64,000 nt of DNA from Acutalibacter sp. 1XD8-36 (GTDB lineage: Bacteria; Bacillota; Clostridia; Oscillospirales; Acutalibacteraceae): positions 1 to 64,000 of the forward strand of contig NZ_QZDU01000005.1 in assembly GCF_009917525.1 (NCBI RefSeq), written 5' to 3'. Below are positions 875 through 24,503 of the stretch, piece after piece. Position 1 is the stretch's first letter. Each line of letters starts with the position of its first letter. The notes under the pieces were generated by a model that was not told where the DNA came from, did not search any database, and saw nothing but the letters and a program-made list of their open reading frames with translations. Both the position numbers and the translations under genes were made by a program.

Positions 875-2770
875 CTATTTTCCCCCACTGCAAGGAAGCC
901 ACACCGCAATCCTTTTATCATAATCCTTCCCCGCCGAGGCATAGTCAGTGAAACACATACGTCCGCCATTCTCTAGCTCCGTTTTGAATGCCATCCGTGC
1001 TTCAAAAGGTACCTCTGCAAGCTCCAGCGGCTTGACTTCTAGCCTGCCACCCGCGTCCGTCTTAAATCCTGCTGGCGCTGACAGGTCATCCTCCGGGAAC
1101 TCCTCGGAAACAGCCAGCGCTATCGGCCCCCTGACTAGAGCCTGATGAGACGGCAGCTTTTCACTCTCCTCGCCCATTTCATTGGATGATAGGATCTCCA
1201 CCGGCATAGGGAAACGAAGGCTGACCCTGTCGCCGTCCTGCCAGAGCCTCTGAAGCTTCAGCCAGCCGGGCCCCGCAGAGGTACCTTCGCCATTCACGCG
1301 GACTTTGGCTGCCTTGCACCAGCCCGGGATTCTCATAGCCAGCTCGAAAGTCTCCGGCCTGTCCAGTGACAGCTCCAGCATGATGTCCTCCCCCACAGGA
1401 TATGTGGTTTCAATAGTCAGTCCCAGCCTATTGCCCTCTGGCGTGGTAAGGTTTAGCGTGCCGGGAAAATACAGATTCACCGCCGCGCCGTTTCGGGTGT
1501 GCATAGCGCTTAGCTGAACCGCTGCACCCAGCCCAGCCGCGCCAATAGCCGCGCAGCAGCCATATATAGTGTTGTCCTCCATTACCATGCGTCCGCCCAC
1601 AGCCTGTCCTCGGGGTGCGGCACGCAGGGGGCTATAGCTGTCAAAAGGCAGCCAGCCGCCCGGAGATAGCGGGTCTCTGGGAACCATGCGGGTGTTCACA
1701 GCACCCAACAGAGCGTTGTGCAGGGAGCGCTCCATGGCATCACCAAAAACAGGGTCACCGGTGAAGCAGAGCACCTGTCCGCAGAGCTTCATCCATGTTA
1801 CCGTAACGCAGGTCTCCTGCATAATGCCGGCATAGTCCGGGTCAATCTGCCGGAGCCTTGAGTGGTCAAAGAGCTCGTGGGTACATCCGGCGCTGCCGAT
1901 AATTGTATTGTCTGAATCCAGCACCCGCCGGGCGAAATTCACCACAGCCCTGCTCCATTTTCCGTTGCCTGTGGCTCTGGCGTACTCCAAAAGCCCCTCA
2001 AAGCAGGACATCATCTCATAGGCCTTTGTGACCGGGTACTGCCAAGGGTCCAGCCGGTCTTCATAAGCCAGCTCGAAAATATTCGCCGATTGGATTCCCC
2101 CAAGGCTCACAATATAATCCGCAAAGTCCAGATATCTCTTCTCACCTGTCATATTGTATAGCCTCACCACCGGTTCAAGTATCGAGGATGAGTTGAGCCC
2201 CTCCCAGTGGCAGCTGGCCTCACGCAGGTCGGCCTTCCCCGGGCCAAAATGAGCTAAAAGACAGTCGGTCTGTGCCATCAAGGAGTCCAGAAGCTCCCCT
2301 TTTAAACTTTCGTCTGCACAGATATCATAGAAATATTCCATTCCCAGCAGCACGTATTTCCTACCCCAGATGTCCCAGCCCTGGAACTCAGCTTCCCGGC
2401 TGTAGGTGGATATCCTGCCGTCAGGTTCGGCATTTTTGAGCATATCTCGGGCGGCGGCTTCCAGCTGCCGGTACAGTTCCGGGTTCCGGGTATAGGACCA
2501 GACCATCGCCCCGCCGCGCATGAGCTTGCCCCAATATTCGCAGCGCCAGCCCAGATCATGGTCGTCGGAGGGGCGGGTAAACTGCTCAGCAAACCTGGTC
2601 CAGAGGGCGGCGTCCAAAAGCTGGTGGCTCTCGATAAACCGAACAGCCTCGTGGAAGGGACCGGTATAGGCCCAGGAGCCGGGACCCGGGCAGAAAAACT
2701 TATCTGTGGAGAGTCTTGGGCGGTATGCGGATTGATTGGCGATAAGGCGTGTGCTCATATCGTTTAACAT
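875..2770 (-). CDS. GH127-family beta-L-arabinofuranosidase (DUF1680-type glycosidase)
   Basis: A 631-residue glycoside hydrolase of the GH127/GH146 type, which removes terminal beta-L-arabinofuranose. These enzymes use a cysteine nucleophile held in a Glu/Cys3 zinc site. Here E319-T-C321 (in QETCVTVTW) and the pair C405-C406 (in IYGCCAAIG) supply the expected residues, so the active site looks intact. The (alpha/alpha) barrel occupies roughly 30-420 and beta-sandwich domains follow. There is no signal peptide, so it acts in the cytoplasm on imported oligosaccharide. I chose the ATG at 2770, which has GGAAG about 8 bases upstream; an ATG at 2794 lacks a ribosome site. It sits directly downstream of the tail of a lost permease gene, suggesting it once followed a transporter operon. 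Confidence 0.9.
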   Translation of the reverse strand: MLNDMSTRLIANQSAYRPRLSTDKFFCPGPGSWAYTGPFHEAVRFIESHQLLDAALWTRFAEQFTRPSDDHDLGWRCEYWGKLMRGGAMVWSYTRNPELYRQLEAAARDMLKNAEPDGRISTYSREAEFQGWDIWGRKYVLLGMEYFYDICADESLKGELLDSLMAQTDCLLAHFGPGKADLREASCHWEGLNSSSILEPVVRLYNMTGEKRYLDFADYIVSLGGIQSANIFELAYEDRLDPWQYPVTKAYEMMSCFEGLLEYARATGNGKWSRAVVNFARRVLDSDNTIIGSAGCTHELFDHSRLRQIDPDYAGIMQETCVTVTWMKLCGQVLCFTGDPVFGDAMERSLHNALLGAVNTRMVPRDPLSPGGWLPFDSYSPLRAAPRGQAVGGRMVMEDNTIYGCCAAIGAAGLGAAVQLSAMHTRNGAAVNLYFPGTLNLTTPEGNRLGLTIETTYPVGEDIMLELSLDRPETFELAMRIPGWCKAAKVRVNGEGTSAGPGWLKLQRLWQDGDRVSLRFPMPVEILSSNEMGEESEKLPSHQALVRGPIALAVSEEFPEDDLSAPAGFKTDAGGRLEVKPLELAEVPFEARMAFKTELENGGRMCFTDYASAGKDYDKRIAVWLPCSGGK

Positions 2771-2795
2771 ACTATACTTCCTTTCTTCTGTCATT

Positions 2796-2885
2796 TTACT
2801 CTTTTACTGAGCCAATGGTAATGCCCGTCACAAAAGCATTGATGGAGAACGCAAGTACAAAGCTATTGTATATTTTACAGTTCAT
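2796..2885 (-). pseudogene. C-terminal remnant of a CUT1 sugar ABC permease
   Basis: Only 29 codons remain. The last residues read NAFVTGITIGSVKE followed by a stop. This is almost the same as the ends of the intact LplC-type permeases here (KYFVTGIVVGAVKE at 33386; SFIKGITIGSVKG at 40462). An ATG with AGGAG upstream happens to open the fragment but cannot make a functional permease. It ends 25 bases before the GH127 start, so GH127 was probably once the last gene of a transporter operon. Confidence 0.75.
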
Positions 2886-2887
2886 AA

Positions 2888-3250
2888 TGTCAACTCCTAA
2901 AAAATTCGGTAGTCAGTATAGCGGCAGGCGATATAGTTTGCCGTCAGTGTCAGGATAAGGGCGAGGCGAGTATTTTTGCCCGCAGTGATTTCACTGTGAC
3001 CATCTGCCGCGATTCGAACCATAGTCCGGAGATATTTCCGTTTGCCTACGATACCCTGGAATATGTCAGCAAAGAATTTGTAAATGAAGGCATTTTGAAC
3101 GACGCTGTTCCGCAGATAACCACGCCCTATTCCAAGTTCTACGAACATCAGGTTCACTGTATGGAGGGTAATACTGCAATGCCGGAAGCATCCATCCGGG
3201 ATTACTACGGCTATTTATACCACCTGCAGCGCCGCTCCATCCGCCATTGA
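2888..3250 (+). pseudogene. Orphan C-terminal fragment of an unknown protein
   Basis: An open frame runs from just after a stop at 2885-2887 to a TGA at 3248-3250 without a convincing start. A GTG at 2996 has no ribosome site. The later part (FTVTICRDSNHSPEIFPFAY, then YSKFYEHQVHCMEG, DYYGYLYHL) looks like genuine folded-protein sequence, with aromatic residues and balanced composition. I do not recognise the family. The likely reading is the 3' end of a gene whose front was deleted together with the permease at 2796. The promoter of the next operon overlaps its stop codon. Confidence 0.45.
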
Positions 3251-3275
3251 CAATCCCTCCCATCCCTGCTATAAT
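3247..3275 (+). promoter_or_regulatory. Consensus sigma-A promoter of the 3306-7017 operon
   Basis: TTGACA (3247-3252), a 17-base spacer and TATAAT (3270-3275), a perfect match to the vegetative consensus, 30 bases before the first gene. The -35 box overlaps the stop codon of the fragment before it. Confidence 0.85.
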
Positions 3276-3305
3276 AAAACCACGATAATCTTTTCACACA
3301 AGGCA

Positions 3306-4169
3306 GTGAGTTCATTGAAAAAGCACACCTTTATTTACTGGCTTTTCCTGCTCCCCAGCCTGCTGGGAGTGGCGCTGTTCTATGTGTTTCCCTTCCTGTT
3401 TTCCCTTTACTATGCGACAGTGGATAACCTTGGGGATATGCGCTTTGCCGGTTTGGAAAATTTTGCGGACACACTCTCAAACCCCCTTTTTCAGCAGGCC
3501 GCCGGGAACACCCTGCTCTTTATTGGACTATGCGTTCCGCTGGGGATGGTACTGGCGCTGTTTCTTTCCATCTGCCTGCAGAGGATGGGGCGCGGCCGTG
3601 TACCGGCTACATTGGCGCTACTGATACCGCTGGTGGTTCCCTCGGGCAGCATCGTGTATTTCTGGAAAGTTTTATTCGACCAGAACGGACTTTTAAGAAA
3701 GCTTCTCCTGCAGGCGGGTTTTTCCCCTGAAATTGTCTTTCAGAACAGTTGGGCCATGGGTATCCTTGTGGCGGTGTTTCTTTGGAAAAACGTCAGCTAT
3801 AATATCGTGCTGTTCTGGTCGGGGCTGGTCTGGATACCCAAGACTTATTACGAGCAGATGGCTCTTGAAGGAGCCGGTGCCTGGAGGCAGTTCATAAATG
3901 TCACATGGGTCTACCTCTCCCCCACTACCTTTGTGGTGCTGCTCATGTCCATTGTGAACTCCTTCAAGGTATTTAAGGAGATTTATATGCTCTACGGCCC
4001 CTACCCCAGCACAGATATCTATATGCTCCAGCACTACATGAACAATCAATTCCAGTCATTGAGTCTGCCGCAGCTTTGCAGCGGCGCGTATATTCTCTTT
4101 CTGGCGGTCAGTTTGGTGCTGCTGGTGCTGTTTAGACTGCAAAAGCGTGTGACGGACACATATCAATAA
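3306..4169 (+). CDS. Sugar ABC transporter permease (MalF/UgpA type)
   Basis: A 287-residue inner-membrane subunit of a CUT1 carbohydrate importer, with about six hydrophobic segments starting at YWLFLLPSLLGVALFYVFPF. The cytoplasmic EAA loop that contacts the ATPase reads YYEQMALEGAGAWRQF near residues 185-200. The start is a GTG with AAGG just upstream. It is the first of three transporter genes in the order permease, binding protein, permease; the more usual order puts the binding protein first. No ATPase gene is nearby, so a shared MsiK/MsmK-type ATPase elsewhere is assumed. The substrate is unknown; context suggests an arabinose- or apiose-containing oligosaccharide. Confidence 0.9.
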   Translation: MSSLKKHTFIYWLFLLPSLLGVALFYVFPFLFSLYYATVDNLGDMRFAGLENFADTLSNPLFQQAAGNTLLFIGLCVPLGMVLALFLSICLQRMGRGRVPATLALLIPLVVPSGSIVYFWKVLFDQNGLLRKLLLQAGFSPEIVFQNSWAMGILVAVFLWKNVSYNIVLFWSGLVWIPKTYYEQMALEGAGAWRQFINVTWVYLSPTTFVVLLMSIVNSFKVFKEIYMLYGPYPSTDIYMLQHYMNNQFQSLSLPQLCSGAYILFLAVSLVLLVLFRLQKRVTDTYQ

Positions 4170-4193
4170 ACCAATTTTGAAAGGGTGAACCAT

Positions 4194-5729
4194 GTGAAAA
4201 CAGTCAAGCCGCTCTGCTCCCTTCTGCTGGTACTCTGCCTGGTCTTTACCTGCGCGGGGTGCCAGAACGAACAGGAAGCGTTATACAGCCAGGCTTTGTC
4301 CTCTCAGACGGATGAAGCTTCAGCGCAGGAGTCTATGCCTGAGAGCGCTCTACAAAGCTCCGAACCCGGAGACGGATTGAGCGGAACTCTCACCATAAAG
4401 ACAGCCTCATATTTGAAAAACAGCTCTATCAACTTTCTGGCTGAAGAGTTTATGCAGCTGCATCCCCAGGTCAAAATCGAGTTTGACTATGAACTGGGCG
4501 AAGCAGAGCTAAACTCGCTCTCCCGCACGGAACGAAATATGCGCCGGGACAGCTATTACACACAGCTGCGTCTGGAGCTTGCCTCCGGGGAGGGCGATTA
4601 CCTTCTCTATAACGTGCAGGAAAAGCTGGATCTTCCAAGCGTGAGCGGACTGCTGGAGGATATTCACGAATATTGGGACAGCGACCCGGACATAGACCCC
4701 GAAGAATATTTCACACCTGTCTTGGAGGCCTTTACTGTTGGCGGAAAGATACCAGTCCTGCCCTTTTCCTTTAAGTACAATGGTATGTATTTCAGCAGTT
4801 CCATTTTACAGAGCTTAAGCGCAGACGCCGGCTCTATCCAATCGGTGAGCTGTGACGATATTTTGGACTGGTATGAGGAAGCTCGAAAGAGCGACCCGCA
4901 GCTCAATCTGATTTTCACATCACCCGGTAAGGACACATTGTTCGCTGCGGAAAAGCCCCGGTACATAGACCTGGAAAATAAAACGGCGGATTTTCAGTCT
5001 CCGAATTTCATCCGCTTTCTGGAACGGACCGCCGCCGTATCCAACGAGGACCCGGAACTGGACCCAGAGAGTGAGATTGGCATCTCGGACCCGGAGCTTA
5101 TGAACGAAAAGCTGCGCTGCCTTTATACAGGGGCCGACCCGTCCGTAACCCTTGGCAATTTTGCCGAGCTGTTCGGGCACCTTGTCACCGCCAGCCGACC
5201 GGCATTTGCCGCGCAGCTGGATGTGGGCTTAGCTGAGATGGCAAGCGCCCTGCATCCTATGGAGTATGTTGCGGGACCCTATCCCTATACCAGCTCCGAC
5301 GGCAAGCTAGGTATAACCTCTTTGGAGAGCTTTGCTCTGCCGGTAAGCTGCAAGAACAAAGACCTTGCCTGGGCATTTATGAAGCACTGCGTCCTGCCCA
5401 GGGACAGCGTGGACTTTTCCCATATGGGCTCCCGCCAGCGCTACACCCATGATATCCCTCTCAGCAAGACAAACTTGCGAAATTTTCTTGAGGATTTTGC
5501 GGAAAATGGCGTACCCATGATGATAACCGAGCCTCGGCTTGACCCTATGGATTTGGAAAACACGACAGAAGTCCTGGAGCAGATTTTGTCCATGCCCCTG
5601 GTCAATACCGGCGCTTACGGCGTTGACCTGCAGGATTATCTGGATGAATACTATATAAATGCTCTGACCACCCCGGAACAGTGCGCCGAAAAGCTGCAGG
5701 ACCGGGTAAATATCTGGCTGCATGAATAA
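4194..5729 (+). CDS. Extracellular sugar-binding lipoprotein of the 3306 importer
   Basis: A 511-residue solute-binding protein. A hydrophobic signal peptide ends in a lipobox (TCAGC) with Cys as the lipidated residue, followed by an acidic Ser/Glu-rich linker and a family-1-type binding domain starting near LTIKTASYLKNSSINFL. I use the GTG at 4194, which has AAAGGG 8 bases upstream; the GTG at 4185 overlaps that ribosome site. The 3' end overlaps the next permease by 8 bases (ATGAATAA), showing translational coupling. It is longer than many homologues (about 420-450), so an inserted region is possible. Confidence 0.85.
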   Translation: MKTVKPLCSLLLVLCLVFTCAGCQNEQEALYSQALSSQTDEASAQESMPESALQSSEPGDGLSGTLTIKTASYLKNSSINFLAEEFMQLHPQVKIEFDYELGEAELNSLSRTERNMRRDSYYTQLRLELASGEGDYLLYNVQEKLDLPSVSGLLEDIHEYWDSDPDIDPEEYFTPVLEAFTVGGKIPVLPFSFKYNGMYFSSSILQSLSADAGSIQSVSCDDILDWYEEARKSDPQLNLIFTSPGKDTLFAAEKPRYIDLENKTADFQSPNFIRFLERTAAVSNEDPELDPESEIGISDPELMNEKLRCLYTGADPSVTLGNFAELFGHLVTASRPAFAAQLDVGLAEMASALHPMEYVAGPYPYTSSDGKLGITSLESFALPVSCKNKDLAWAFMKHCVLPRDSVDFSHMGSRQRYTHDIPLSKTNLRNFLEDFAENGVPMMITEPRLDPMDLENTTEVLEQILSMPLVNTGAYGVDLQDYLDEYYINALTTPEQCAEKLQDRVNIWLHE

Positions 5730-6612
5730 GAAATCGCCTATGAAGTCAAAACATATTTGGGCCGGTACCATCATCTGGCTGGCGGCAGCAGTTGCCCTGT
5801 TCCCTGTCATATTTATCGCGGCAAACTCCTTTATGGGCGGCGGGGAAATTGTCAGCCGGTACTCGCCTGAAATGCTCCCCACGAATGCCGGGGATTTCAC
5901 CTCTCACAATATCCACTTCGTGCGCTTCGGGCTTATCCCCCAGGAGCCCACGCTCGAACAGTACCGCAGGCTGCTGCTGGAAAGCCCCGGCTACCTTCGG
6001 ATGTTCTGGAACTCCGTGCTGATTGTCGCGCCGGTGCTGCTGGGTCAGTGTGTGCTGGCCCCCTTAGCCGCATATGGCTTGGAGAATATCCGCTGGAAGT
6101 ATAAAGAGGCCATTTTCTTTACGTATATAGTTGTCATGCTAATGCCCACACAGCTTTCGCTGGTGCCGAATTTTATCGTAGCCGGGTGGCTGAACATCCG
6201 GGACTCTTACCTTGCCATCATACTTCCCGCGCTGTTCCATCCGCTGGGCGTGTTTCTGGTGCGCCAGCAGCTGATAAGCTTTCCAAAGGAGTGTATGGAA
6301 GCCGCCGCCCTGGACGGCGCCGGACCGTTTCGGACGTACAGTTCGGTGGTGCGCCCGAACTTAAACTCTGTTGTCGCTGCGCTGTTGGTGCTTCTCTTTG
6401 CAGATAACTGGAACGTCATCGACCAGGCGGTAGTCTTCATCGGCCAGACCTACCGCAACCCGCTGTCCGTCTATCTTGGCAATGTGGTCACTGACGAACC
6501 GGGTATGTTTTTCGCGGTATCTGTATTCTATTTGATTCCGGCGCTGCTGGTATTTTTGTTTGGGCAGGAACATCTTACAGAAGGCATCGCGCTGTCGGGC
6601 CTGAAAGCATAG
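5722..6612 (+). CDS. Sugar ABC transporter permease (MalG type)
   Basis: A 296-residue partner permease for the gene at 3306. It has about six membrane segments and the EAA loop CMEAAALDGAGPFRTY near residue 195. The periplasmic-side loop after the first segment is unusually long (about residues 35-85). It overlaps the binding-protein gene by 8 bases, and a short membrane-anchored protein follows 9 bases later, so all four genes form one transcript. Confidence 0.9.
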   Translation: MNKKSPMKSKHIWAGTIIWLAAAVALFPVIFIAANSFMGGGEIVSRYSPEMLPTNAGDFTSHNIHFVRFGLIPQEPTLEQYRRLLLESPGYLRMFWNSVLIVAPVLLGQCVLAPLAAYGLENIRWKYKEAIFFTYIVVMLMPTQLSLVPNFIVAGWLNIRDSYLAIILPALFHPLGVFLVRQQLISFPKECMEAAALDGAGPFRTYSSVVRPNLNSVVAALLVLLFADNWNVIDQAVVFIGQTYRNPLSVYLGNVVTDEPGMFFAVSVFYLIPALLVFLFGQEHLTEGIALSGLKA

Positions 6613-6621
6613 GAGAGCGGC

Positions 6622-7017
6622 ATGAAGAAAAAAATGCGGGTTGTTTACACCTTTATCGCGGTGATTTATTTCATAGCTGTGATATTTGCTACCGTCTACG
6701 CGCAGACCGGTTATATTGGCACGCTGCCGTCAGTGGAGCTGGGCCGGGTGACAGATGGGCGCATCCCCAAGAAATGCACCTGGTATGACACGGAAAAGGA
6801 GTGCCTGCGAGTCAATACCGTTGTCCAGGAGGATGGTCCATGGGGGAAGCGGTATGTTATACACACGAAGGATATTCTCAACTATCGGGAGCTGGATGAA
6901 GAGAGTATCGTGGTCTTTGGCGTCACAGAGATTAAAGAGCCGATTGTGGTTTCCGCAGAACGGGAGGTTTTCAGCGGGCAGGAGGTTCGGCTGAAAAGTG
7001 TGAATGAGCAAGGTTGA
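6622..7017 (+). CDS. Small membrane-anchored protein of unknown function
   Basis: 131 residues with one N-terminal membrane helix (VVYTFIAVIYFIAVIFATVY) and an outside domain of about 100 residues. That domain is rich in beta-forming residues and looks like a barrel-sandwich or beta-barrel extension; I do not recognise the family. It has a good ribosome site (AGGAG) 9 bases after the permease stop and closes the transporter operon. Its position suggests an accessory surface subunit of the importer, but that is inference only. Confidence 0.7.
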   Translation: MKKKMRVVYTFIAVIYFIAVIFATVYAQTGYIGTLPSVELGRVTDGRIPKKCTWYDTEKECLRVNTVVQEDGPWGKRYVIHTKDILNYRELDEESIVVFGVTEIKEPIVVSAEREVFSGQEVRLKSVNEQG

Positions 7018-7127
7018 ATTTGTCCGGGTTCTGTGCTATTCACTAGGCAAAAATGTTTCTTATAATCTGCCCAAATAACATATGGTCCCTAACACCGCCA
7101 ATAAAATTCAAATACTCCGGACACCTT

Positions 7128-8135
7128 CTACACACTTTTGCGCTTTACAAGCACCGTGCTAATCTCAATTTTCATCGCATGTGAATCCACTTTCTCCGCC
7201 ATTTCCGCCAGCCTGCTTACGGCTGTTTCTCCCATAACCTGAGTGGGAACGTGAATGGTGGTCAGCGGCGGTTCCATGTAATTGCAGAGAGGCAGGTCGT
7301 CAAAGCCAACCACTGCCACGTCCTCGGGAATCCTGTACCCCGCCTCCTTCAGCGCCGCGATTGCCCCGATAGCAATGTGGTCGTTGTCTGCAAAGTAACA
7401 GTCCGCCGGTTCTTCTCCGCTTTCCAGCAGGGCTTTCATGTCGGCATAGGCGCCCTCCTGAGAAGGCGTAAGCTGATAAACAACAGACTTCGCGGTTGAC
7501 ATGCCGTTCCTGCGGATAGCCTTGTAAAAACCGTCGGCCCGCTCTGCAAAATTGCTGATTTTATAGGACGAGCACAGGTAGCCCGGCTGAGTCCTGCGCT
7601 TGGAAATCAGATAATTGGTGGCAATAAACGCCCCCTGAATATTGTTGATAAGGACATAGTTATAGTCTGCCGTTTCAAAATAGGCGTCAAGAATGACAAT
7701 GGGCGTTTTAATTTGAGAAAAACGGGAAAGTGCCGAAGCGTCCAGTTCGGTAGCCAGAAGAATGATTCCCCGAAAGCCGGAGGTCTCCAAAGTGTAAAGC
7801 TGGTCGGGCAGAGTTTCATCTTCGTATAGATAACGGATAAGTAAATCGTACTGCGCTTTTTGACACCCAAAGCTGACGCCGTTTGTCAGGTCTGCAAAGA
7901 ATGGAGTGTCCCCCACAACAGCTCCGCTCCGTCTGTACACCACCAGGCAGAATTGCCCTTTCCAGTTTCCGCGGGCAACTGCCTTTCGGGAAAAATCGTA
8001 TCCCAGGCGCCGGGCAGCTTCTATCACCTTCCGCCTTGTAGCGGTGCTTACGCCGGGCTTATTGTTTAGAGCCATTGAAACCGCTGCCTGAGAAAGTCCC
8101 AGTGCCTTTGCCAGCTCTTTTGCTGTAACTGCCAT
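7128..8135 (-). CDS. LacI-family transcriptional regulator
   Basis: 335 residues. The N-terminal LacI helix-turn-helix and hinge read AKELAKALGLSQAAVSMALN then RRKVIEAARRLGYDF. A periplasmic-binding-protein-like sugar-sensing core follows (about 60-335), with the usual DVAVVGFDDLPL motif near its end. The ATG at 8135 has AGAGGTG upstream. The gene is divergent from the catabolic operon at 8265 and convergent with the transporter operon, so it most likely represses both in the absence of a sugar or sugar phosphate. Its own promoter is at 8159-8187. Confidence 0.93.
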   Translation of the reverse strand: MAVTAKELAKALGLSQAAVSMALNNKPGVSTATRRKVIEAARRLGYDFSRKAVARGNWKGQFCLVVYRRSGAVVGDTPFFADLTNGVSFGCQKAQYDLLIRYLYEDETLPDQLYTLETSGFRGIILLATELDASALSRFSQIKTPIVILDAYFETADYNYVLINNIQGAFIATNYLISKRRTQPGYLCSSYKISNFAERADGFYKAIRRNGMSTAKSVVYQLTPSQEGAYADMKALLESGEEPADCYFADNDHIAIGAIAALKEAGYRIPEDVAVVGFDDLPLCNYMEPPLTTIHVPTQVMGETAVSRLAEMAEKVDSHAMKIEISTVLVKRKSV

Positions 8136-8158
8136 AATCTTCACCTCTATTCAATTTT

Positions 8159-8187
8159 AGTATATAAGATTTAGTGAATTAAGTCAA
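8159..8187 (-). promoter_or_regulatory. Promoter of the LacI-type gene
   Basis: On the minus strand TTGACT (8182-8187), a 17-base spacer and TATACT (8159-8164). The region is embedded in AT-rich direct repeats that may be operator half-sites (8171-8200). Confidence 0.65.
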
Positions 8188-8200
8188 TAAATACTGAATT
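8171..8200. promoter_or_regulatory. Candidate operator: 20-bp-spaced direct repeat between divergent genes
   Basis: TTAGTGAATT (8171-8180) recurs as ATACTGAATT (8191-8200), starts 20 bases apart (two helical turns), between the LacI-type gene and the operon it faces. LacI proteins normally bind palindromes, so the repeat is only a candidate site. Confidence 0.35.
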
Positions 8201-8264
8201 TTTTCTGTAAATTAAGTTCCTCATCTGGTATTCTAAGTATAGGAAACCGTGAAGGAGGAATTTT

Positions 8265-9665
8265 ATGGCAAACATCAAACTGGGCTTTGCGCCTACCAGA
8301 AGGAGTATCTTCAGCGCGCCGGACGCTGTGAAATATCGTGGCCTTACTGCCGGCCGCCTACAGGAGCTGGGCGTGGAATTCGTAGATATTGACGATATCA
8401 ACGATGAAGGGCTGCTATATGATGAAAATGACCGGTTGAAGATTCTGGAGAAATTCAAAGCCTCGCAGGTAGACGGCCTCTTTCTGCCCCACTGCAATTT
8501 CGGCACAGAGTACCTGTGCGCCAGGCTTACAAAAGACCTGCATGTCCCGGTGCTTCTCTGGGGACCCCTTGACGAGAGGCCCGAGCCAAATGGCGTGCGG
8601 CTTCGCGACACCCAGTGCGGACTGTTTGCCACCGGAAAGGTGCTCAGGCGTTTTGGCGTGCCATTTACCTACATGACAAACTGCCGGTTAAACGACCCTG
8701 TGTTTGCCCGGGGCATAAATGATTTTCTGGCTGTGTGCAATGTGGTGAAGACTTTCCGCAATATCCGCATTTTGCAGATTGGGCCAAGGCCCTTCGACTT
8801 TTGGAGCACCATGTGCAACGAGGGTGAGCTGTTGGAAAAATTCGGCGTGGAGCTGTCGCCCATCCCCCTGCCGGAGCTGACCGGGGAAGTTAAGCGGGCT
8901 ATTGCCGACCGGGACGAGGTGCAGAAAACCATTGCCTGCTGCAAGGCAAATATGGAAATCAATGTAACCGAAGAACAGCTTGAAAACATAGCCGGGCTTG
9001 CAGTGGCAATGGAGCGCCTGATGGGGAAATATCACTGCAGCGCCGGAGCTATTCAGTGCTGGAACGCCTTGCAAGGCGAGCTTGGCATTATGCCCTGCGC
9101 AGCCAACGCCATTCTGAACGAAAAAGGGCTGCCCGTTGTTTGTGAGACCGATATTCATGGGGCGATTACCGCTCTGCTGGTGGAAGCTGCCGCCAACGAC
9201 GGAACACGCAGCTTTTTTGCCGACTGGACCATCCGCCACCCGGATATTGAAAACGGCGAGCTTTTGCAGCACTGTGGCCCCTGGCCCATTTCCTGCGCAA
9301 AAGGGAAGCCCTGCATTACTTACCCGCTGGCGTTTGATTACCCCGGCGCAGTCACAGCCGAGGCAAAGCACGGTGAGCTGACCCTCGCCCGGTTTGATGG
9401 CGACAACGGCAAATACAGCCTGCTTTTGGGCAACGCCAAAGGCGTAGACGGTCCAAAAGGTATGGGGACCTATCTTTGGGTAGAGGTGGAGAATATCAAG
9501 CGTCTGGAAGCCAAGATAGTAGAGGGGCCATATATACACCACTGTGTGGGCATTCACAGGGATGTTGTGCCGGTGCTGTATGAGGCCTGCAAATATCTGG
9601 GCGTTGCGCCTGACCTTTACGACCCTATTGAGGAGAAAGTGAGGGCGTATCTCCGTGGAGAATAA
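8265..9665 (+). CDS. L-fucose/L-arabinose-isomerase-like sugar isomerase
   Basis: A 466-residue protein of the FucI/AraA-like superfamily, Mn-dependent aldose-ketose isomerases. The C-E-T-D-I-H-G stretch at 293-299 matches the conserved metal-binding segment of this family, and late His residues (YIHHCVGIH) fit the C-terminal part of the site. At 466 residues it is shorter than classical FucI (about 590) and belongs to the shorter subgroup of unassigned specificity. It opens an operon with a split transketolase and an FGGY kinase and overlaps the next gene by 11 bases. In this setting it probably converts an imported aldose to the ketose that the kinase phosphorylates; D-apiose to D-apulose is a good candidate. 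Confidence 0.85.
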   Translation: MANIKLGFAPTRRSIFSAPDAVKYRGLTAGRLQELGVEFVDIDDINDEGLLYDENDRLKILEKFKASQVDGLFLPHCNFGTEYLCARLTKDLHVPVLLWGPLDERPEPNGVRLRDTQCGLFATGKVLRRFGVPFTYMTNCRLNDPVFARGINDFLAVCNVVKTFRNIRILQIGPRPFDFWSTMCNEGELLEKFGVELSPIPLPELTGEVKRAIADRDEVQKTIACCKANMEINVTEEQLENIAGLAVAMERLMGKYHCSAGAIQCWNALQGELGIMPCAANAILNEKGLPVVCETDIHGAITALLVEAAANDGTRSFFADWTIRHPDIENGELLQHCGPWPISCAKGKPCITYPLAFDYPGAVTAEAKHGELTLARFDGDNGKYSLLLGNAKGVDGPKGMGTYLWVEVENIKRLEAKIVEGPYIHHCVGIHRDVVPVLYEACKYLGVAPDLYDPIEEKVRAYLRGE

Positions 9666-10491
9666 AGAACTGGAACTGCTCTCCTGGAATCTGCGCCGGG
9701 ACACTTTAGACATTATTATGGCTGGGGGCGGCGGGCATATTGGCGGCGATATGAGCCTGCTTAACGCTTTGATGGTGCTGTATAAAAACCATCTGAATAT
9801 TACGCCGGAAACAGTTGACGACCCCGACCGGGACCGGTTCGTGCTGTCCAAGGGCCACGCCATGGAGGCCTATTACGCCGTGCTGTGCCATTGCCGGTTT
9901 CTTGACCTGGACGACGTAAAAGCGGGGTTTAATAAATTCGGTTCACCCTATATCGGGCACCCCAATAATAAGCTGCCGGGCATTGAGATGAATTCGGGCA
10001 GTCTGGGCCATGGACTGCCTGTCTGCGTGGGCATGGCCCTGGCGGGCAAGCGGGACGGCAAAAAATATCGGGTCTACACCATTTTAGGCGACGGCGAGCT
10101 GGCTGAAGGCTCCGTATGGGAGGGGGCTATGGCTGCTGGCCACTATAAGCTGGACAACCTCTGCGCCGTAATTGACCGCAATGGCCTGCAGATTTCCGGC
10201 TCCACCGAGGATGTAATGAGTCACAAGCCCCTGGGCGCCCGCTGGGAAAGCTTTGGCTGGAATGTGCTGGAGGTAAACGGAAACAGCATTGCGCAGCTTG
10301 ACAAGGCTTTTAGTCAGGCAAAATCATATATGGGAAAGCCCACTGTCATTATTAGCCAGACCACCAAGGGCTTTGGTAGCCCGCTGATGGAAAACCGCCC
10401 AGAGTGGCACCACCATCTGCCTACTGAAGAAGAATATGAAGCAATCAAGGCGGACTTTCAAAAGGGAAAGGAGGCAGTTGCCAGTGAATAA
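9655..10491 (+). CDS. Transketolase N-terminal (TPP-binding) subunit
   Basis: 278 residues covering the pyrophosphate-binding half of transketolase. The TPP motif starts G145-D-G and ends at N176, with the family-typical SKGHAMEAYYAVL and SGSLGHGLPVCVGMALAG stretches before it. The start is a GTG inside the end of the isomerase gene, and the 3' end overlaps the C-terminal subunit gene by 8 bases. Split transketolases of this type work as a heterodimer with the next product. Beside an FGGY kinase and a sugar isomerase the arrangement matches apulose-4-phosphate transketolase, which moves a two-carbon unit from a branched ketose phosphate to glyceraldehyde 3-phosphate. The substrate is inference. 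Confidence 0.92.
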   Translation: MENKELELLSWNLRRDTLDIIMAGGGGHIGGDMSLLNALMVLYKNHLNITPETVDDPDRDRFVLSKGHAMEAYYAVLCHCRFLDLDDVKAGFNKFGSPYIGHPNNKLPGIEMNSGSLGHGLPVCVGMALAGKRDGKKYRVYTILGDGELAEGSVWEGAMAAGHYKLDNLCAVIDRNGLQISGSTEDVMSHKPLGARWESFGWNVLEVNGNSIAQLDKAFSQAKSYMGKPTVIISQTTKGFGSPLMENRPEWHHHLPTEEEYEAIKADFQKGKEAVASE

Positions 10492-11422
10492 AATACCCAA
10501 CCGGCAGGCGATTTGCCAAACACTTTTGAAGTATGCGGAAAAGGATAAAAGCATTTTTGCCCTGTGCAGCGACAGCCGGGGCAGTGCCGGCATGTCGCCC
10601 TTTTTCCAACAGTTTCCGGAGCAGACGGTAGAGCTCGGCATTGCAGAGCAAAATCTTGTAAGCATAGCGGCGGGACTCGCCTCCTGTGGCAAAAAGCCCT
10701 ATGCTTTTTCCCCTGCCTGCTTTCTTGCGAGCCGCAGCTACGAACAGGCCAAGGTGGACTGTGCATATTCCAACACCAATGTGAAGCTTATCGGTATTTC
10801 AGGCGGCGTCAGCTACGGCGCTCTAGGCATGAGCCACCACAGCGCCCAGGACATCGCTGCCATGGCTGCTCTTCCCAACATGCGGGTGTATCTGCCCAGC
10901 GACCGCTTTCAGACTGCAAAACTGATAGAAGCCCTTTTGCAGGACGAAAAGCCCGCCTATGTTCGCGTGGGCCGCAATCCGGTGGAGGATATTTACAGCG
11001 ATGAAGCTTGCCCCTTTGAACTGAACCGGGCAACCTGGCTGCGAAGCAGGGCTCAGACCGTAAGGGTAGCGCTTATTACCTGCGGAGAAATGGTGTGCCC
11101 GGCCCTGGAGGCTGCCGGTTTACTGGAGAGGGAGGGGATATCTGTCAGCGTGCTGGATATGTACTGCGTTAAGCCGCTGGATAAGGCTGCTGTGACCGAG
11201 GCCGCACAGAATGCGGATATTGTGGTTACGGTGGAGGAGCATTCTCCCTACGGTGGGCTGGGAAGCATGGTGGCCCAGGTAGTGGGTGAATGCTGTCCCA
11301 AACGAGTAAAGTGCCTGTCCCTGCCGGATGCGCCTGTGATTACCGGCACCTCTGCTGAGGTGTTTGCCCACTATGGGCTCACCGGCCGGGGGATTGCAAA
11401 AACTGTGAAGGAGCTGCTGTGA
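10484..11422 (+). CDS. Transketolase C-terminal subunit
   Basis: 312 residues containing the pyrimidine-binding domain (VELGIAEQNLVSIAAGLAS, with the Glu that activates TPP) and the C-terminal transketolase domain (ALITCGEMV to the end). The GTG at 10484 has AAGGAGG 9 bases upstream and overlaps the N-terminal subunit gene; a longer open frame from 10436 has no ribosome site. It pairs with the product of 9655 to make one enzyme. Confidence 0.92.
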   Translation: MNKIPNRQAICQTLLKYAEKDKSIFALCSDSRGSAGMSPFFQQFPEQTVELGIAEQNLVSIAAGLASCGKKPYAFSPACFLASRSYEQAKVDCAYSNTNVKLIGISGGVSYGALGMSHHSAQDIAAMAALPNMRVYLPSDRFQTAKLIEALLQDEKPAYVRVGRNPVEDIYSDEACPFELNRATWLRSRAQTVRVALITCGEMVCPALEAAGLLEREGISVSVLDMYCVKPLDKAAVTEAAQNADIVVTVEEHSPYGGLGSMVAQVVGECCPKRVKCLSLPDAPVITGTSAEVFAHYGLTGRGIAKTVKELL

Positions 11423-12861
11423 TGAAATATGTGCTAGCCATTGACCAAAGCACCTCCGGCACCAAGGCTCTGCTTTTGGATGGGGCCGGTGAGCTTCTCA
11501 AACGTGCAGACTTGTCCCATGAGCAGAAAATCAATGCCCTGGGATGGGTCAGCCACGACCCTATGGAGATATACCGAAACACCATCGAAGCGGCCCGCCT
11601 GGCAGTTTCAGGCATTGACCCGGCAAAGATAGCAGCTATTGGCATCAGCAACCAGCGGGAAACCGCTCTGATATGGGATAGTGAGACCGGGCTGCCTGTA
11701 GCTGACGCCGTTGTCTGGCAGTGCGGACGGGCGCAGGAAATCTGTGACCGTTTAGCAAATCAGGCCGAGACTGTACGGCAAAAAACCGGACTGCTACTTT
11801 CCCCTTATTTTCCGGCAGCCAAATGGGCATGGATTTTAGGGAACACTCAGGGCCTAGAAAACCGGCAGTTATGTGCGGGGACGATTGACAGCTGGCTCGT
11901 CTACAAACTTACCGGCAGCTTTAAAACTGACTTTTCCAATGCAAGCCGCACCCAGCTTTTTAATATTAATCTGCTGCAATGGGATAAAGAACTGTGTGAG
12001 CTGTTCGGCGTGCCATTGGAATCCCTTCCCGAAGTCTGCATGAGCGACAGCTGTTTTGGAGAGACCGATATGGAAGGGGTACTTCCCGGGCCAGTCCCTA
12101 TATTCGGTGTTTTGGGCGACTCCCACGGAGCCCTTTTCGGTCAAGGCTGTGTGAAACCCGGCATGGGAAAAGCCACCTACGGCACCGGCTCTTCCGTTAT
12201 GGTAAATGTGGGAGAGAAGCCGGTGTTCAGCGACAGTGGCATTGTCACTTCGCTGGCCTGGGGCATTGACGGCAGAATCCATTATGTGCTGGAGGGAAAT
12301 ATCAACTACACCGGCTCAGTAATCAAATGGCTGGTGGACGATGTTAAGCTGCTGAGTTCCTCGAAAGAAGCCGGAGAGATTGCCGCCGGCGCAGACCAAA
12401 ACGACGGCACTTACCTGGTTCCAGCCTTTACCGGCCTGGGGGCGCCCTACTGGAAATCTGACTCAAGGGCCATTCTCTGTTGCATGGGGCGGGGAACCGG
12501 ACGTGCCGAAATCGTCAGGGCCGCAGAGGAGAGCATTGCCTACCAGATTGCAGACGTGGCCCTTGCCATAGAAAAGGGCTCCGGGATAATGCTTAATGAG
12601 CTGCGGGCGGACGGCGGGCCTACCCGGGACAAATTCCTCATGCAGTTTCAAAGCGATTTGCTGGGCCGCCCTGTGGCTGTTTCAGAACGCGAGGAACTGT
12701 CCGGCATAGGCGCGGCATATTGTGCGGGAATCGCCTGCGGCCTGTATGGCTGGGAAATACTGGAAAAGCAGGCCCGCACCAGTTTTCTTCCCCAAAGAGA
12801 TTTGGCCTGGCGGGAAAAGAAATATAGCGGCTGGAAGCAGGCTGTGAGCCTGTTATTATAA
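11422..12861 (+). CDS. FGGY-family carbohydrate kinase (glycerol-kinase-like)
   Basis: 479 residues with the two FGGY actin-like domains. The phosphate loop reads DQSTSGTKALL near residue 8, and GLGAPYWKSDSR and RADGGPTRDKFLMQFQSDLL lie in the C-terminal half. The last two resemble glycerol kinases more than xylulokinases. The ATG sits in a TGATG overlap with the transketolase stop and has GAAGGAG upstream. In this operon it should phosphorylate the ketose made by the isomerase; apulose kinases are FGGY enzymes, so D-apulose is plausible. A glycerol or other polyol kinase role cannot be excluded from sequence alone. Confidence 0.9.
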   Translation: MKYVLAIDQSTSGTKALLLDGAGELLKRADLSHEQKINALGWVSHDPMEIYRNTIEAARLAVSGIDPAKIAAIGISNQRETALIWDSETGLPVADAVVWQCGRAQEICDRLANQAETVRQKTGLLLSPYFPAAKWAWILGNTQGLENRQLCAGTIDSWLVYKLTGSFKTDFSNASRTQLFNINLLQWDKELCELFGVPLESLPEVCMSDSCFGETDMEGVLPGPVPIFGVLGDSHGALFGQGCVKPGMGKATYGTGSSVMVNVGEKPVFSDSGIVTSLAWGIDGRIHYVLEGNINYTGSVIKWLVDDVKLLSSSKEAGEIAAGADQNDGTYLVPAFTGLGAPYWKSDSRAILCCMGRGTGRAEIVRAAEESIAYQIADVALAIEKGSGIMLNELRADGGPTRDKFLMQFQSDLLGRPVAVSEREELSGIGAAYCAGIACGLYGWEILEKQARTSFLPQRDLAWREKKYSGWKQAVSLLL

Positions 12862-12874
12862 GGAGGAAATTGTT

Positions 12875-14401
12875 ATGTCAACTAACAAAACAGAACGCTG
12901 GTCTGTATTTGAGGTCGTGATTACAGGCCCGAGAGACGGCAATCCCTTTACAGAGCGGGAGCTTTCCGGAGTATTCCGGAGCAAAAACGAAGAAAAGCGT
13001 GTCATGGGCTTCTATGACGGAGAGGGCGTGTATAAGCTGCGCTTTATGCCCAGCTTTGAGGAGGAATACACCTACGAGACCACAGGAAATTTCCCGGAGG
13101 CCCAGACCTCAGGCAGTTTTACCGTAACGCCGCCCAGAGAGGGAAACCATGGCCCTGTTCATGTGGTGAACGGCTGCCATTTTGCCTATGAGGATACCAC
13201 GCCATATTATTCTGTGGGCACCACCTGTTATGTGTGGGAGCATCAGCCTGACGAAGTTTATGAAAAGACCCTGAAGGAGCTTGATAAGGGGTATTTCAAC
13301 AAAATGCGGTTCTGCGTATTCCCCAAGCACTATATCCACAATTTCAAGGACCCGGAGACCTTCCCCTATGAGGGCACGCCGGTGGACAATTCTGGGCTCT
13401 GCGAGGAGACCTTCACCTATGAAGCAGATTTTTCCGGAAACAGCTGGGATTTTACCCGGTTCAACCCCGAGCATTTCCGCCGTGTAGAGCGGGCAATTCT
13501 GGACCTGCAGAAGCGTGGAATTGAGGCGGACCTTATCGTTATGCACCCATATGACCGCTGGGGATTTTCCGCCATGACCAGAGAGCAGGACGACCTGTAC
13601 TGGAAATACGTCATTGCTCGGTTTGCCGCCTACCGCAACGTCTGGTGGAGCCTTGCCAATGAGTACGACCTGCTCCGCGCCAAAACACTGAAGGACTGGG
13701 AGCACTATGCAGATATGCTCTGTAGGCTTGACCCCTACAACCGGCTTCGGGGCATTCACAACTGCATTGCATTTTACGACCATACGCGCCCATGGATTAC
13801 CCACTGCTCCCTGCAGCGGCAGGACCTTTACCGCCACGTGGAGTATACCGCAGACTACCGCACCCAGTGGGCAAAACCCGTGGTATGGGACGAGATTGCC
13901 TACGAAGGAAACATCGACATGGGCTGGGGCAATATCTCGGGCCAAGAGCTGACCCGCCGTTTCTGGGAGGCCAGTCTGAGGGGCGGCTATGCGGGCCACG
14001 GAGAGACTTATGTAGACAATGAGAATGATGTACTGTGGTGGAGCCACGGCGGGGAACTTCACGGCGAAAGCCCGGAGCGAATCAAATTTCTCCATCAGAT
14101 TCTCTGCCAGACTCCCGGCTATGGGCTTCGGCAGGGACATGGCAGCTTCGACGAGACCGTGGCCGTGCCTGACGGCGCAGATTTCCTAACTCCCGGCGGC
14201 CCCGGCTATGAGATTCACTATTACGGCTTCGGCCGCCCCAGCTTCCGGGATTTTTACAAATCTCCCGACGAAAGCTGGCAGGTTGAAATTATCGACACTT
14301 GGGAAATGACTGTCACCGACGCCGGGATACATAGCGGTAAATTCCGCATTTCCCTGCCGGGCAAAGAGTATATGGCTGTCAGGCTGAGAAAGCTTTCCTG
14401 A
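12875..14401 (+). CDS. DUF5060/DUF4038/DUF5605-type glycoside hydrolase
   Basis: 508 residues. An N-terminal beta-sandwich (DUF5060-like, about 5-85) is followed by a DUF4038-like TIM barrel (about 95-425) and a C-terminal beta domain (DUF5605-like). N262-E263 in WWSLANEYD fits the acid/base and E340 in VVWDEIAYEG fits the nucleophile of a retaining clan-A-like enzyme. DUF4038 proteins include the GH140 apiosidases that act on rhamnogalacturonan-II. There is no signal peptide, so it acts on imported oligosaccharide. It follows the kinase by 13 bases with AGGAGG before its ATG. Apiosidase activity is inferred from the domain and the neighbouring genes. Confidence 0.85.
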   Translation: MSTNKTERWSVFEVVITGPRDGNPFTERELSGVFRSKNEEKRVMGFYDGEGVYKLRFMPSFEEEYTYETTGNFPEAQTSGSFTVTPPREGNHGPVHVVNGCHFAYEDTTPYYSVGTTCYVWEHQPDEVYEKTLKELDKGYFNKMRFCVFPKHYIHNFKDPETFPYEGTPVDNSGLCEETFTYEADFSGNSWDFTRFNPEHFRRVERAILDLQKRGIEADLIVMHPYDRWGFSAMTREQDDLYWKYVIARFAAYRNVWWSLANEYDLLRAKTLKDWEHYADMLCRLDPYNRLRGIHNCIAFYDHTRPWITHCSLQRQDLYRHVEYTADYRTQWAKPVVWDEIAYEGNIDMGWGNISGQELTRRFWEASLRGGYAGHGETYVDNENDVLWWSHGGELHGESPERIKFLHQILCQTPGYGLRQGHGSFDETVAVPDGADFLTPGGPGYEIHYYGFGRPSFRDFYKSPDESWQVEIIDTWEMTVTDAGIHSGKFRISLPGKEYMAVRLRKLS

Positions 14402-23011: not shown

Positions 23012-23098
23012 CATGAGTCTCGTTATTTAAGACAAGCCAGGCAGACTGCCGGGTATGTTGACTTGCCACGCGAAGCGCGCTTACTACTCCCTCATGGG
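23012..23098 (-). promoter_or_regulatory. yybP-ykoY manganese riboswitch (aptamer)
   Basis: The leader of the antiporter carries the conserved yybP-ykoY elements in order on the minus strand: ATGAGGGAGTAG (about 23096-23085), a GC hairpin, GTCAACATACCCGG, a second hairpin arm, and AACGAGACTCAT, which closes the first helix by pairing with ATGAG. These match the family in which Mn bridges the two helical arms and favours transcription of Mn exporters. With the promoter upstream and terminator downstream the whole control unit is present. Confidence 0.88.
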
Positions 23099-23116
23099 TA
23101 TTTCGATTGTAGGTGT

Positions 23117-23145
23117 ATTATACCAGGCCATGCATATATTGTCAA
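23117..23145 (-). promoter_or_regulatory. Promoter of the riboswitch/antiporter transcript
   Basis: On the minus strand TTGACA (23140-23145), 17 bases, TATAAT (23117-23122): perfect consensus. The transcript would start about 10 bases before the aptamer. Confidence 0.85.
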
Positions 23146-23180
23146 GTACAATTTTCCCAACATATCGACAGTCCTCAGGC

Positions 23181-23209
23181 TTGTTTTATGTGGGCTCCTA
23201 TGCTATAAT
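23181..23209 (+). promoter_or_regulatory. Promoter of the oxidoreductase/isomerase pair
   Basis: TTGTTT (23181-23186), 17 bases, TATAAT (23204-23209), about 50 bases before the ATG at 23258. Confidence 0.7.
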
Positions 23210-23257
23210 TGGCAAAGAGCTGGAATTTATGCCGTTTTGGCAGAAAGGAGACCGATT

Positions 23258-24487
23258 ATGGACAGAAAACCTGTAAAAATTGCCATGATAGGCGTTGGGG
23301 CCATTAGTGGGATATATTTGCAGAACATCACCCACACCTTCCGGGAGCTTGAGCTTGTGGGGGTCTGCGACCTGATACCCGAGCGCGCTGAGAAGGGCGC
23401 GGCCTATGTGAAGGGCGAAATTGAAAATGACCCGCAGCTTCGTGAAAGGAATGTCAGCGTGCCGAAGATTTATAAGGACATGTATGAGGCCTTCAATGAC
23501 CCTGAGGTGGAGGTGGTGCTAAACTTAACCCGTCCTTATGAGCACTTCGAGGTGACAAAGCAGGCTCTCTTACACGGCAAGCATGTGTACAGCGAAAAGC
23601 CGCTGGGAGTTGACATGGACGAGGCTAATGAGCTGATAGCTCTTGCAGAGGAGAAAAACCTTCGGCTTGGGGGCGCTCCTGACACGTTTATGGGCGCCGG
23701 AATCCAGACGGCCCGCAGGCTTATAGACGACGGATACATAGGCGACGTGGTCGGGGCCAGCTGTGCCATGGTCTGCCACGGACACGAAACCTGGCACCCA
23801 GACCCGGAGTTCTACTATAAGCGGGGCGCAGGGCCTATGCTGGACATGGGCCCGTACTATATCACCGCCCTTGTGCAGCTGCTGGGTGAGGCCAAGGGGC
23901 TGATGGGCATGGCAAAGCGCTCCTTTACTCAGCGTCTCATAACCTCAGAACCCCATAGGGGTGAGATTGTTGATGTGGACGTAGACACATGGCTTTCCGG
24001 CAATATCGAGTTTACAAGCGGCGCCATCGCCCAGGTCTTCACCACCTTTGACGTACACTACACCGCCCAGTCCCGGTTTGAGGTGTACGGCACAAGGGGC
24101 AGCATGATGGTCCCCGACCCAAATACCTTTGGCGGACCCGTACTGCTCCTGCGCCCCGAGGATTTTGCGGCAGCCCCGAAAACTGACCCCGGACTCAGCC
24201 GCCATGGCGTGCCGGACTTCTATGCCGGCTGGAGAGAGATGCCTCTGATGTACGACTACCCGGTGAACAGCCGCGCTCTCGGCCTTGCCGACATGTGCAA
24301 GGCTCTGCGCACCGGCCGGGACCATAGGGCCAACTACCAGCAGCAGCGCCATGTGCTGGAGATAATGACCGCCTTCTCAAAGTCCGGAGAACAAAAGGCC
24401 TATGTGCCCATCACCACCGGCTATGAGCGCACCGCACCCATGGTAAACGACCCGCTGAAAATCATGCACGGCATTTTAGATGACTAA
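23258..24487 (+). CDS. Gfo/Idh/MocA-family oxidoreductase
   Basis: 409 residues. The N-terminal Rossmann fold opens VKIAMIGVGAISGIYLQNI, with the EKP motif (YSEKPLGVDMDEANEL) near residue 120. The C-terminal alpha/beta domain carries the sugar site, with a GAGPMLDMGPYYITALVQLLG segment. It oxidises or reduces a sugar with a tightly held NAD(P). The ATG at 23258 has AGAAAGGAG upstream; the longer open frame to 23063 would cross the promoter. It is paired with a TIM-barrel isomerase 16 bases downstream, a combination also found in keto-sugar glycoside cleavage and inositol-like pathways. Confidence 0.92.
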   Translation: MDRKPVKIAMIGVGAISGIYLQNITHTFRELELVGVCDLIPERAEKGAAYVKGEIENDPQLRERNVSVPKIYKDMYEAFNDPEVEVVLNLTRPYEHFEVTKQALLHGKHVYSEKPLGVDMDEANELIALAEEKNLRLGGAPDTFMGAGIQTARRLIDDGYIGDVVGASCAMVCHGHETWHPDPEFYYKRGAGPMLDMGPYYITALVQLLGEAKGLMGMAKRSFTQRLITSEPHRGEIVDVDVDTWLSGNIEFTSGAIAQVFTTFDVHYTAQSRFEVYGTRGSMMVPDPNTFGGPVLLLRPEDFAAAPKTDPGLSRHGVPDFYAGWREMPLMYDYPVNSRALGLADMCKALRTGRDHRANYQQQRHVLEIMTAFSKSGEQKAYVPITTGYERTAPMVNDPLKIMHGILDD

Positions 24488-24503
24488 TTAGGAGGATACT
24501 ATA

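Follow-up and report, generated by a model that had tools for sequence, protein, structure and literature searches.

A probable D-apiose catabolic operon in Acutalibacter sp. 1XD8-36 with an isomerase of a different subfamily and an unclassified glycosidase

The stretch analyzed here, referred to as the window, comprises 64,000 nucleotides of Acutalibacter sp. 1XD8-36 (NZ_QZDU01000005.1, positions 1 to 64,000), a probable gut bacterium; it is part of contig C54 (this and the other contig, genome and locus labels are our own) of a 3.2-Mb genome that is 99.5% complete. At 8265-14401, five packed plus-strand genes encode an isomerase, the two halves of a split transketolase, an FGGY kinase and a glycosidase. 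From the gene families, their linkage and the trees described below, we conclude that this operon probably catabolizes D-apiose, a rare plant cell-wall sugar; we put the probability of this reading at about 0.85. On this reading, the operon is a mosaic variant of the known apiose pathway, in which the isomerase belongs to a different subfamily and the glycosidase is unclassified. An apiose-containing glycoside would enter the cell via a transporter, perhaps the one encoded by CUT1-type ATP-binding cassette (ABC) genes just upstream, and the cytoplasmic glycosidase would release apiose. The isomerase would then convert D-apiose into D-apulose, and the FGGY kinase, derived from glycerol kinase, would phosphorylate D-apulose to apulose-4-phosphate. 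Finally, the two-subunit transketolase would transfer a C2 unit to glyceraldehyde-3-phosphate, yielding dihydroxyacetone phosphate (DHAP) and xylulose-5-phosphate. A LacI-family regulator would repress the operon when substrate is absent.

The first gene (8265-9665) encodes the proposed D-apiose isomerase, of 466 amino acids. It is followed by the transketolase N-half (9655-10491; Transketolase_N, 168 bits) and the C-half (10436-11422, with some doubt about the exact start codon; Transket_pyr, 102.5 bits, and Transketolase_C, 96 bits), proposed to be the AptA-like and AptB-like subunits of an apulose-4-phosphate transketolase. The proposed D-apulose kinase (11419-12861), AplK-like, and the glycosidase (12875-14401) complete the set. 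From the isomerase through the kinase, successive genes overlap by 11, 56 and 4 bp, and kinase and glycosidase are separated by 13 bp. The first-pass annotation of the window had described a five-gene operon faced by a LacI gene, and all of these genes are present. In a promoter and terminator scan, which found fewer terminators than in shuffled sequences, no terminator-like site was found 3' of the glycosidase gene.

The D-apiose transketolase pathway was reportedly described by Carter et al. 2018 in Pectobacterium and other Enterobacterales. It is cited as MetaCyc PWY-8089 in PMC13001218, which names aplK, aptA and aptB of E. coli SE15 by locus tag and states that cluster-bearing E. coli strains grow on D-apiose; our reference AplK, AptA and AptB sequences were taken from the SE15 record via these tags. 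The same text credits Carter et al. 2018 with apiose use by gut Bacteroides and Clostridia, and part of the apiose gene set of Firmicutes may thus already be in print there. According to that text and our own locus L101, the E. coli SE15/ST131/ST14 cluster resembles the window operon in its AptA, AptB and AplK homologues but differs from it in having no isomerase gene; Escherichia lacks apsI, the Pectobacterium isomerase gene, and carries two putative oxidoreductase genes instead, of the short-chain dehydrogenase/reductase type. On plasmids of Klebsiella, Rahnella and Sodalis, in turn, we found clusters with an importer that includes DUF2291, a regulator, two transketolase genes and a kinase. 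Between the second transketolase gene (AptB) and the kinase, all three carry an "L-fucose/L-arabinose isomerase family protein" ("fucose isomerase" in Rahnella). This protein is called ApsI below, a name given by synteny and not by comparison with the Pectobacterium ApsI sequence. The enterobacterial pathway shares with the window operon an isomerase, an FGGY apulose kinase and a two-subunit transketolase, and its ribose-type importer also occurs near 31 of 80 Firmicutes loci. It differs in the subfamily of the isomerase, in its regulator (annotated "sugar-binding transcriptional regulator", as opposed to LacI in the window) and in that the window operon includes the glycosidase; nothing closely related to the ribose-type binding protein is encoded in the window genome.

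The kinase and both transketolase subunits share a common ancestry with the enzymes of the apiose clusters. In a tree of 24 kinase rows (three of them panel rows), subsampled from a collection with 75 distinct operon-type/AplK sequences, the kinases of the operons group with AplK in a single clade that excludes GlpK, with support of 100/99.8. The transketolase trees contained 28 N-half rows of 77 and 28 C-half rows of 74, with the window row added to each, and were set against other split transketolases, presumed to be housekeeping where no operon isomerase or kinase was nearby. The operon N-halves form a clade with the four AptA rows (100/98), and the C-halves form a clade with AptB (99/92), the latter represented by two rows because two of the four enterobacterial sequences fell under the length filter. 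A first test of the clade of operon N-halves and AptA had rejected it (p of the approximately unbiased test, p-AU, 1.45e-33). This is explained by L138, labeled housekeeping in that test: it is an operon-type N-half, 81% identical to that of the window, on a contig apart from the isomerase. The 100/98 tree was built from a different subsample, after L138 and L105 had been manually assigned to the operon set and a neighboring kinase had also been allowed as a criterion. The first-pass annotation had proposed apiose as the substrate and alignment of these three proteins with their characterized counterparts; the trees support that assignment.

The best-matching family models of the window kinase are those of glycerol kinase, and it passes the subfamily model NF000756 (527.4 bits; cut-off 498). 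It falls short of the GlpK equivalog TIGR01311 (519.2 bits; cut-off 590.35), and its glycerol-site residues are altered; we therefore rejected its identification as GlpK. These residues were compared in an alignment of 99 rows, consisting of 91 distinct locus sequences and 8 panel rows, which duplicate some of the former, after sequences under 85% of the query length had been dropped; positions are given in what we take to be GlpK numbering. Position 246 is Ser in 82 of 82 operon-type/AplK rows (75 distinct locus sequences and 7 panel repeats), and Gln in 17 of 17 GlpK rows (16 distinct), which include the GlpK of the window genome itself. Likewise, Cys269-Phe270 of GlpK is replaced by Ser-Ser, Ala-Ser, Thr-Ser or Cys-Ser in all 82 operon-type/AplK rows and in none of the 17 GlpK rows. 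The window kinase has Ser246 and, at 269-270, Ser-Ser. Arg83, Glu84, Trp103 and Asp245 are retained in 99 of 99 rows, and Tyr135 in all except the enterobacterial AplK rows, which have Leu. Apulose resembles glycerol with a ketone-bearing arm on C2, and a glycerol site altered in this manner would fit it. These residues may separate apulose kinases from glycerol kinases, and so improve annotation.

The same residues bear on a reversed order of steps, in which the transketolase would act on free D-apulose and release dihydroxyacetone, and the glycerol-kinase-like enzyme would convert the latter into DHAP. Chemically this route gives the same end products, and the relation of the kinase to glycerol kinase and the retention of Arg83, Glu84, Trp103 and Asp245 are consistent with it. 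However, the replacement of Gln246 and Cys269-Phe270, also present in the named apulose kinase, speaks against glycerol or dihydroxyacetone as the substrate, and we consider the reversed order very improbable.

Loci related to the operon were selected from the genome_contigs collection by the isomerase alone, and comprise the best 80 of at least 568 isomerase relatives (at least 594 stretches matched), at 79-93% identity. In 66 of these 80, both transketolase halves and the kinase are found no more than 6 kb from the isomerase and in its orientation; this also holds for 59 of the 64 loci with at least 4.6 kb of downstream sequence. Since the loci were picked without regard to the partners, this linkage is not due to chance. 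Among the best 80, the closest isomerases (three at 93%) are from Bacterium D16-76 and an Oscillospiraceae bacterium, and further carriers include Megasphaera, Anaerovibrio, Selenomonas, Blautia, Hespellia and Faecalibacterium; matches in a plasmid collection add Monoglobus pectinilyticus and Listeria monocytogenes. The block of isomerase, two transketolase genes and kinase recurs in Megasphaera, Anaerovibrio, Blautia, Monoglobus and Listeria. Monoglobus pectinilyticus is a pectin specialist, and we count its possession of the block in favor of the apiose reading.

Across the order, the isomerase was found in 4 of 147 evenly drawn genomes, including that of the window (E up to 1e-150). In a sample of 29 genomes of the genus, again including the window's, 15 have it at 70% identity or more; in three of these 15 (G011:C230, G017:C59 and G021:C57) the match is split into two or three pieces, which suggests decay or assembly errors. 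High identity together with patchy occurrence suggests that the gene has spread by horizontal transfer. A gene matching the Apiosidase model (PF13204) is present in 14 of the 15 isomerase-positive genomes, the exception being a genome that is 60% complete, and in 7 of the 14 others (Fisher p 0.014, uncorrected for relatedness; p 0.011 without G014, one of the 14, which has a 54%-identical isomerase). In 11 of the 14 genomes with both, the isomerase gene and the Apiosidase-model gene share a contig and are at most about 6 kb apart; in the other three they are on different contigs. Among 14 control genomes, the Apiosidase family search matched 2.

The Listeria monocytogenes locus (L105, 4004-13086) has the gene order of lmo1030-1036 as listed in PMC2996996. 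It resembles the window in the succession of regulator, isomerase, two transketolase genes and kinase, with an isomerase 69% identical to that of the window; it differs in that a beta-glucoside phosphotransferase system (PTS) protein, IIBCA, and a strong Apiosidase-model protein (313 bits) replace the ABC genes and the DUF5060 glycosidase. Relatives of this Apiosidase-model protein (41-44%) are found in operon loci L039, L054 and L094. PMC8079631 calls lmo1035-1036 a beta-glucoside transporter and a beta-glucosidase, and older Listeria papers have lmo1031 as "possibly involved in fucose utilization" and the operon as "responsible for glycerol metabolism". Among the titles and abstract openings surveyed, none assigns this isomerase of Firmicutes or the operon of Listeria to apiose. 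Judging by gene content, the comparison points to lmo1030-1036 as an apiose or apioside operon with a PTS.

Those published assignments amount to a more general alternative, namely that the operon serves another ketose or polyol, such as L-fucose, D-arabinose, glycerol or erythrulose. The metal site of the isomerase, which is FucI-like, and the annotation of the kinase as glycerol kinase also speak for it. Yet these sugars do not need a dedicated transketolase pair, the kinase and transketolase group with enzymes of apiose clusters, the glycerol site of the kinase is altered, and elsewhere the genome encodes GlpK (C64) and a further split transketolase (C11). We regard this alternative as very improbable.

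To return to the apiose operon of the window, its isomerase is assigned to the FucI/AraA-type aldose isomerase superfamily based on its predicted fold and metal-site residues. The AlphaFold model (pLDDT 83.6, pTM 0.87) matches L-arabinose isomerase AraA best in Foldseek (E 2.8e-24, TM about 0.8), followed by L-fucose/D-arabinose isomerase FucI (E 4.1e-17, TM about 0.75). Glu294, Asp320 and His426 align with Glu337, Asp361 and His528 of FucI, which we take to be metal ligands. The profile of the isomerase aligns weakly in hhalign with single E. coli AraA or FucI sequences (probability about 4%) and with the Klebsiella isomerase at a probability of 100%; Pfam Fucose_iso_C scores 23.8 bits, below its cut-off of 29.3. 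The sole NCBIfam match is sulfoquinovose isomerase SftI, and sulfo-transketolase pathways with an isomerase and a transketolase are in print, judging by titles and abstract openings. The operon could in principle degrade sulfoquinovose. The SftI score of 102 bits, however, is far short of the cut-off of 700, and the isomerases of the enterobacterial apiose clusters score 114-119 on the same model; moreover, no sulfosugar gene is seen among the five genes, and a glycerol-type kinase would have no evident place. On these scores we rejected the sulfoquinovose pathway, which is hardly credible.

Several observations weigh against the apiose reading. In five of the 64 loci, part of the block is missing over the 6 kb considered: the transketolase genes in L058 and L094, the kinase in L091 and L097, and all three partners in L055. 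In raw identity, the window kinase is closer to GlpK (39.7-44.1%) than to AplK (36.4-38.6%), and within the operon/AplK clade the kinase of Listeria sits on a long branch. The seven congeners with PF13204 sequences but no 70%-identical isomerase (G014 has one at 54%) belong here as well, as does the window genome's best match, at 26%, to the ribose-type binding protein of Anaerovibrio (L063), which leaves it without a close homologue. According to PMC3091722, Listeria replicates modestly less in Caco-2 cells when lmo1031-1036 is deleted, and an apiose operon does not explain this phenotype. Lastly, the window isomerase is 26% identical to enterobacterial ApsI, and a clade of the two to which no other paralogue belongs is rejected (p-AU 3.45e-32, or 4.96e-46 when an outgroup is included; 21 isomerase rows, some identical, with long branches present and the test run after the first tree was seen). 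Those other paralogues, which are uncharacterized, come mostly from the genus-genome search.

We therefore rejected orthology of the window isomerase to ApsI, and its proposed substrate rests on context. Kinase and transketolase share their ancestry with the enterobacterial enzymes while the isomerase is of another subfamily; the isomerase step was thus swapped, by exchange or ancient paralogy. On this reading, the first step takes three forms: the enterobacterial isomerase, the E. coli oxidoreductases and the window-type isomerase. The first-pass annotation had considered a FucI-type isomerase unusual in an apiose role; this does not hold, since the three enterobacterial clusters with AptA, AptB and kinase homologues already have one. 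As judged from the sequences, what is unusual is that the window isomerase lies outside their subfamily. In our estimate the chances are even for a broader proposal: that this isomerase founds a second, non-orthologous D-apiose isomerase family, patchy in gut Firmicutes and Listeria, with at least three solutions to the first step, and that the glycosidase represents a new cytoplasmic apiosidase family outside GH140.

The nearest sisters of the window isomerase, in L110 and L125 (51-53% identity), adjoin GH140-type genes, which connects this subfamily with apiosides. In the L125 cluster (1391-4499) the GH140-type gene is intact (Apiosidase, 367.6 bits, and Collagen_bind_2), and the contig ends soon after the isomerase; that of L110 is a contig-end piece with an internal stop. 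The L110 cluster (4637-11079) continues with an FGGY kinase, a SIS-domain protein, a zinc alcohol dehydrogenase and an RpiR regulator, and no transketolase homologue was seen in its 11-kb stretch. L110 and L125 are possibly a second type of cluster, for a transketolase-free apiose route. As a side observation, L056 carries an RbsD/FucU-type mutarotase gene at 13589-14062, a candidate apiose mutarotase; it is the sole representative scanned of an open reading frame cluster found in 25 loci of L021-L100.

The glycosidase, a DUF5060-(beta/alpha)8-DUF5605 protein, is proposed to be an intracellular hydrolase of imported apioside; on visual inspection, no signal peptide is apparent at its N-terminus. 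It had been annotated as a DUF4038-type glycosidase, the fold of GH140 apiosidases, and Pfam does match Apiosidase (PF13204) between DUF5060 and DUF5605, at 53.9 bits (cut-off 26.5) and over positions 74-274 of 320 only. The lack of the Asp acid/base signature and the structural ranking speak against a GH140 assignment. Residues 4-483 of 508 match BVU_0362 of Bacteroides (PDB 4n0r; E 6.4e-100, 36% identity in the structure match), a nearly whole-length match to an uncharacterized, DUF5060-type putative glycoside hydrolase whose entry title gives no function. In Foldseek searches with the model (pLDDT 75.7), the GH5 mannanase ManDH5 ranked before GH140 BT_1012 and 8t9w. In GH140, the acid/base is presumably Asp (D187 of BT1012) and the nucleophile Glu (E284). 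The acid/base position of the window protein is the clan-A-type motif Asn262-Glu263, as opposed to GDT or GDR in four Apiosidase-type sequences, and the nucleophile position, Glu340, is Glu in 7 of 7 aligned glycosidases. With Glu in place of Asp and a structure nearer to BVU_0362 and the mannanase, we rejected membership in GH140; the protein should be called a DUF5060-DUF5605 glycosidase, without assigned specificity.

The proteins of the ribose-type importer near 31 of the 80 loci share 44-59% identity with their counterparts in the apiose cluster of Klebsiella. The Anaerovibrio binding protein (L063) scores 365 bits with PDB 5ibq, which we take to hold D-apiose, compared with 192 for the best ribose-binding protein; the sole paper listing 5ibq calls it a probable ribose transporter. 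A glycosidase is present in 14 of the 80 loci (11 of the window type, 3 of the Listeria type), and together with the ribose-type importer in only one (Fisher p 0.007, indicative only, as the loci are related and some are short). This rare co-occurrence suggests two lifestyles, one taking up free apiose and the other an apioside that is then hydrolyzed in the cytoplasm; the window locus would be of the latter type. Its candidate importer (3306-7017, plus strand), linked to the operon by position only, comprises a CUT1-type permease, a solute-binding protein and a second permease (3306-6612), and an open reading frame of 131 amino acids. Weak permease homologues are found in 2 of the 80 loci (L031 and L042), both with the glycosidase.

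The apiose reading provides a testable function for a conserved block that many Firmicutes of gut and rumen carry and whose genes are annotated as fucose isomerase, transketolase and glycerol kinase, and likely a new interpretation of Listeria lmo1030-1036 in place of the published fucose or glycerol metabolism. The core of the pathway, kinase and transketolase, would be conserved, and its ends, isomerase, glycosidase and importer, replaceable. It could also improve the prediction of which bacteria consume apiose from pectin, i.e., rhamnogalacturonan II (RG-II), and from apiosylated flavonoids.

The gene for the LacI-family regulator (7128-8144, minus strand; Pfam LacI and Peripla_BP_3) is divergent from the operon. 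Between the two, upstream of the isomerase, a AGTGAATTAAGTCAA-like motif (8173-8225) is a candidate operator arranged as a direct, not inverted, repeat, 33 bp apart in the window and 9 bp in some other loci. The first putative copy (AGTGAATTAAGTCAATAAAT) is at 8173-8192 and the second, 33 bp downstream, at 8206-8225, both on the plus strand and with a TTAAGT core. This core, a motif selected after being seen in the data, occurs 41 times in 24 LacI-flanked, mutually related upstream regions, compared with 4.06 times in single-base shuffles, and is absent from 8 of the 24 loci. Palindromic LacI operators were also considered and rejected, with weak and inconsistent matches only.

Elsewhere in the window, a GH127-type gene (875-2794, minus strand; beta-L-arabinofuranosidase model) is divergent from the ABC importer and may belong to the same plant-glycan locus as the operon. 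At 23063-25328, on the plus strand, a Gfo/Idh/MocA oxidoreductase gene is followed by a xylose-isomerase-like TIM-barrel gene, forming a separate sugar-type pair.

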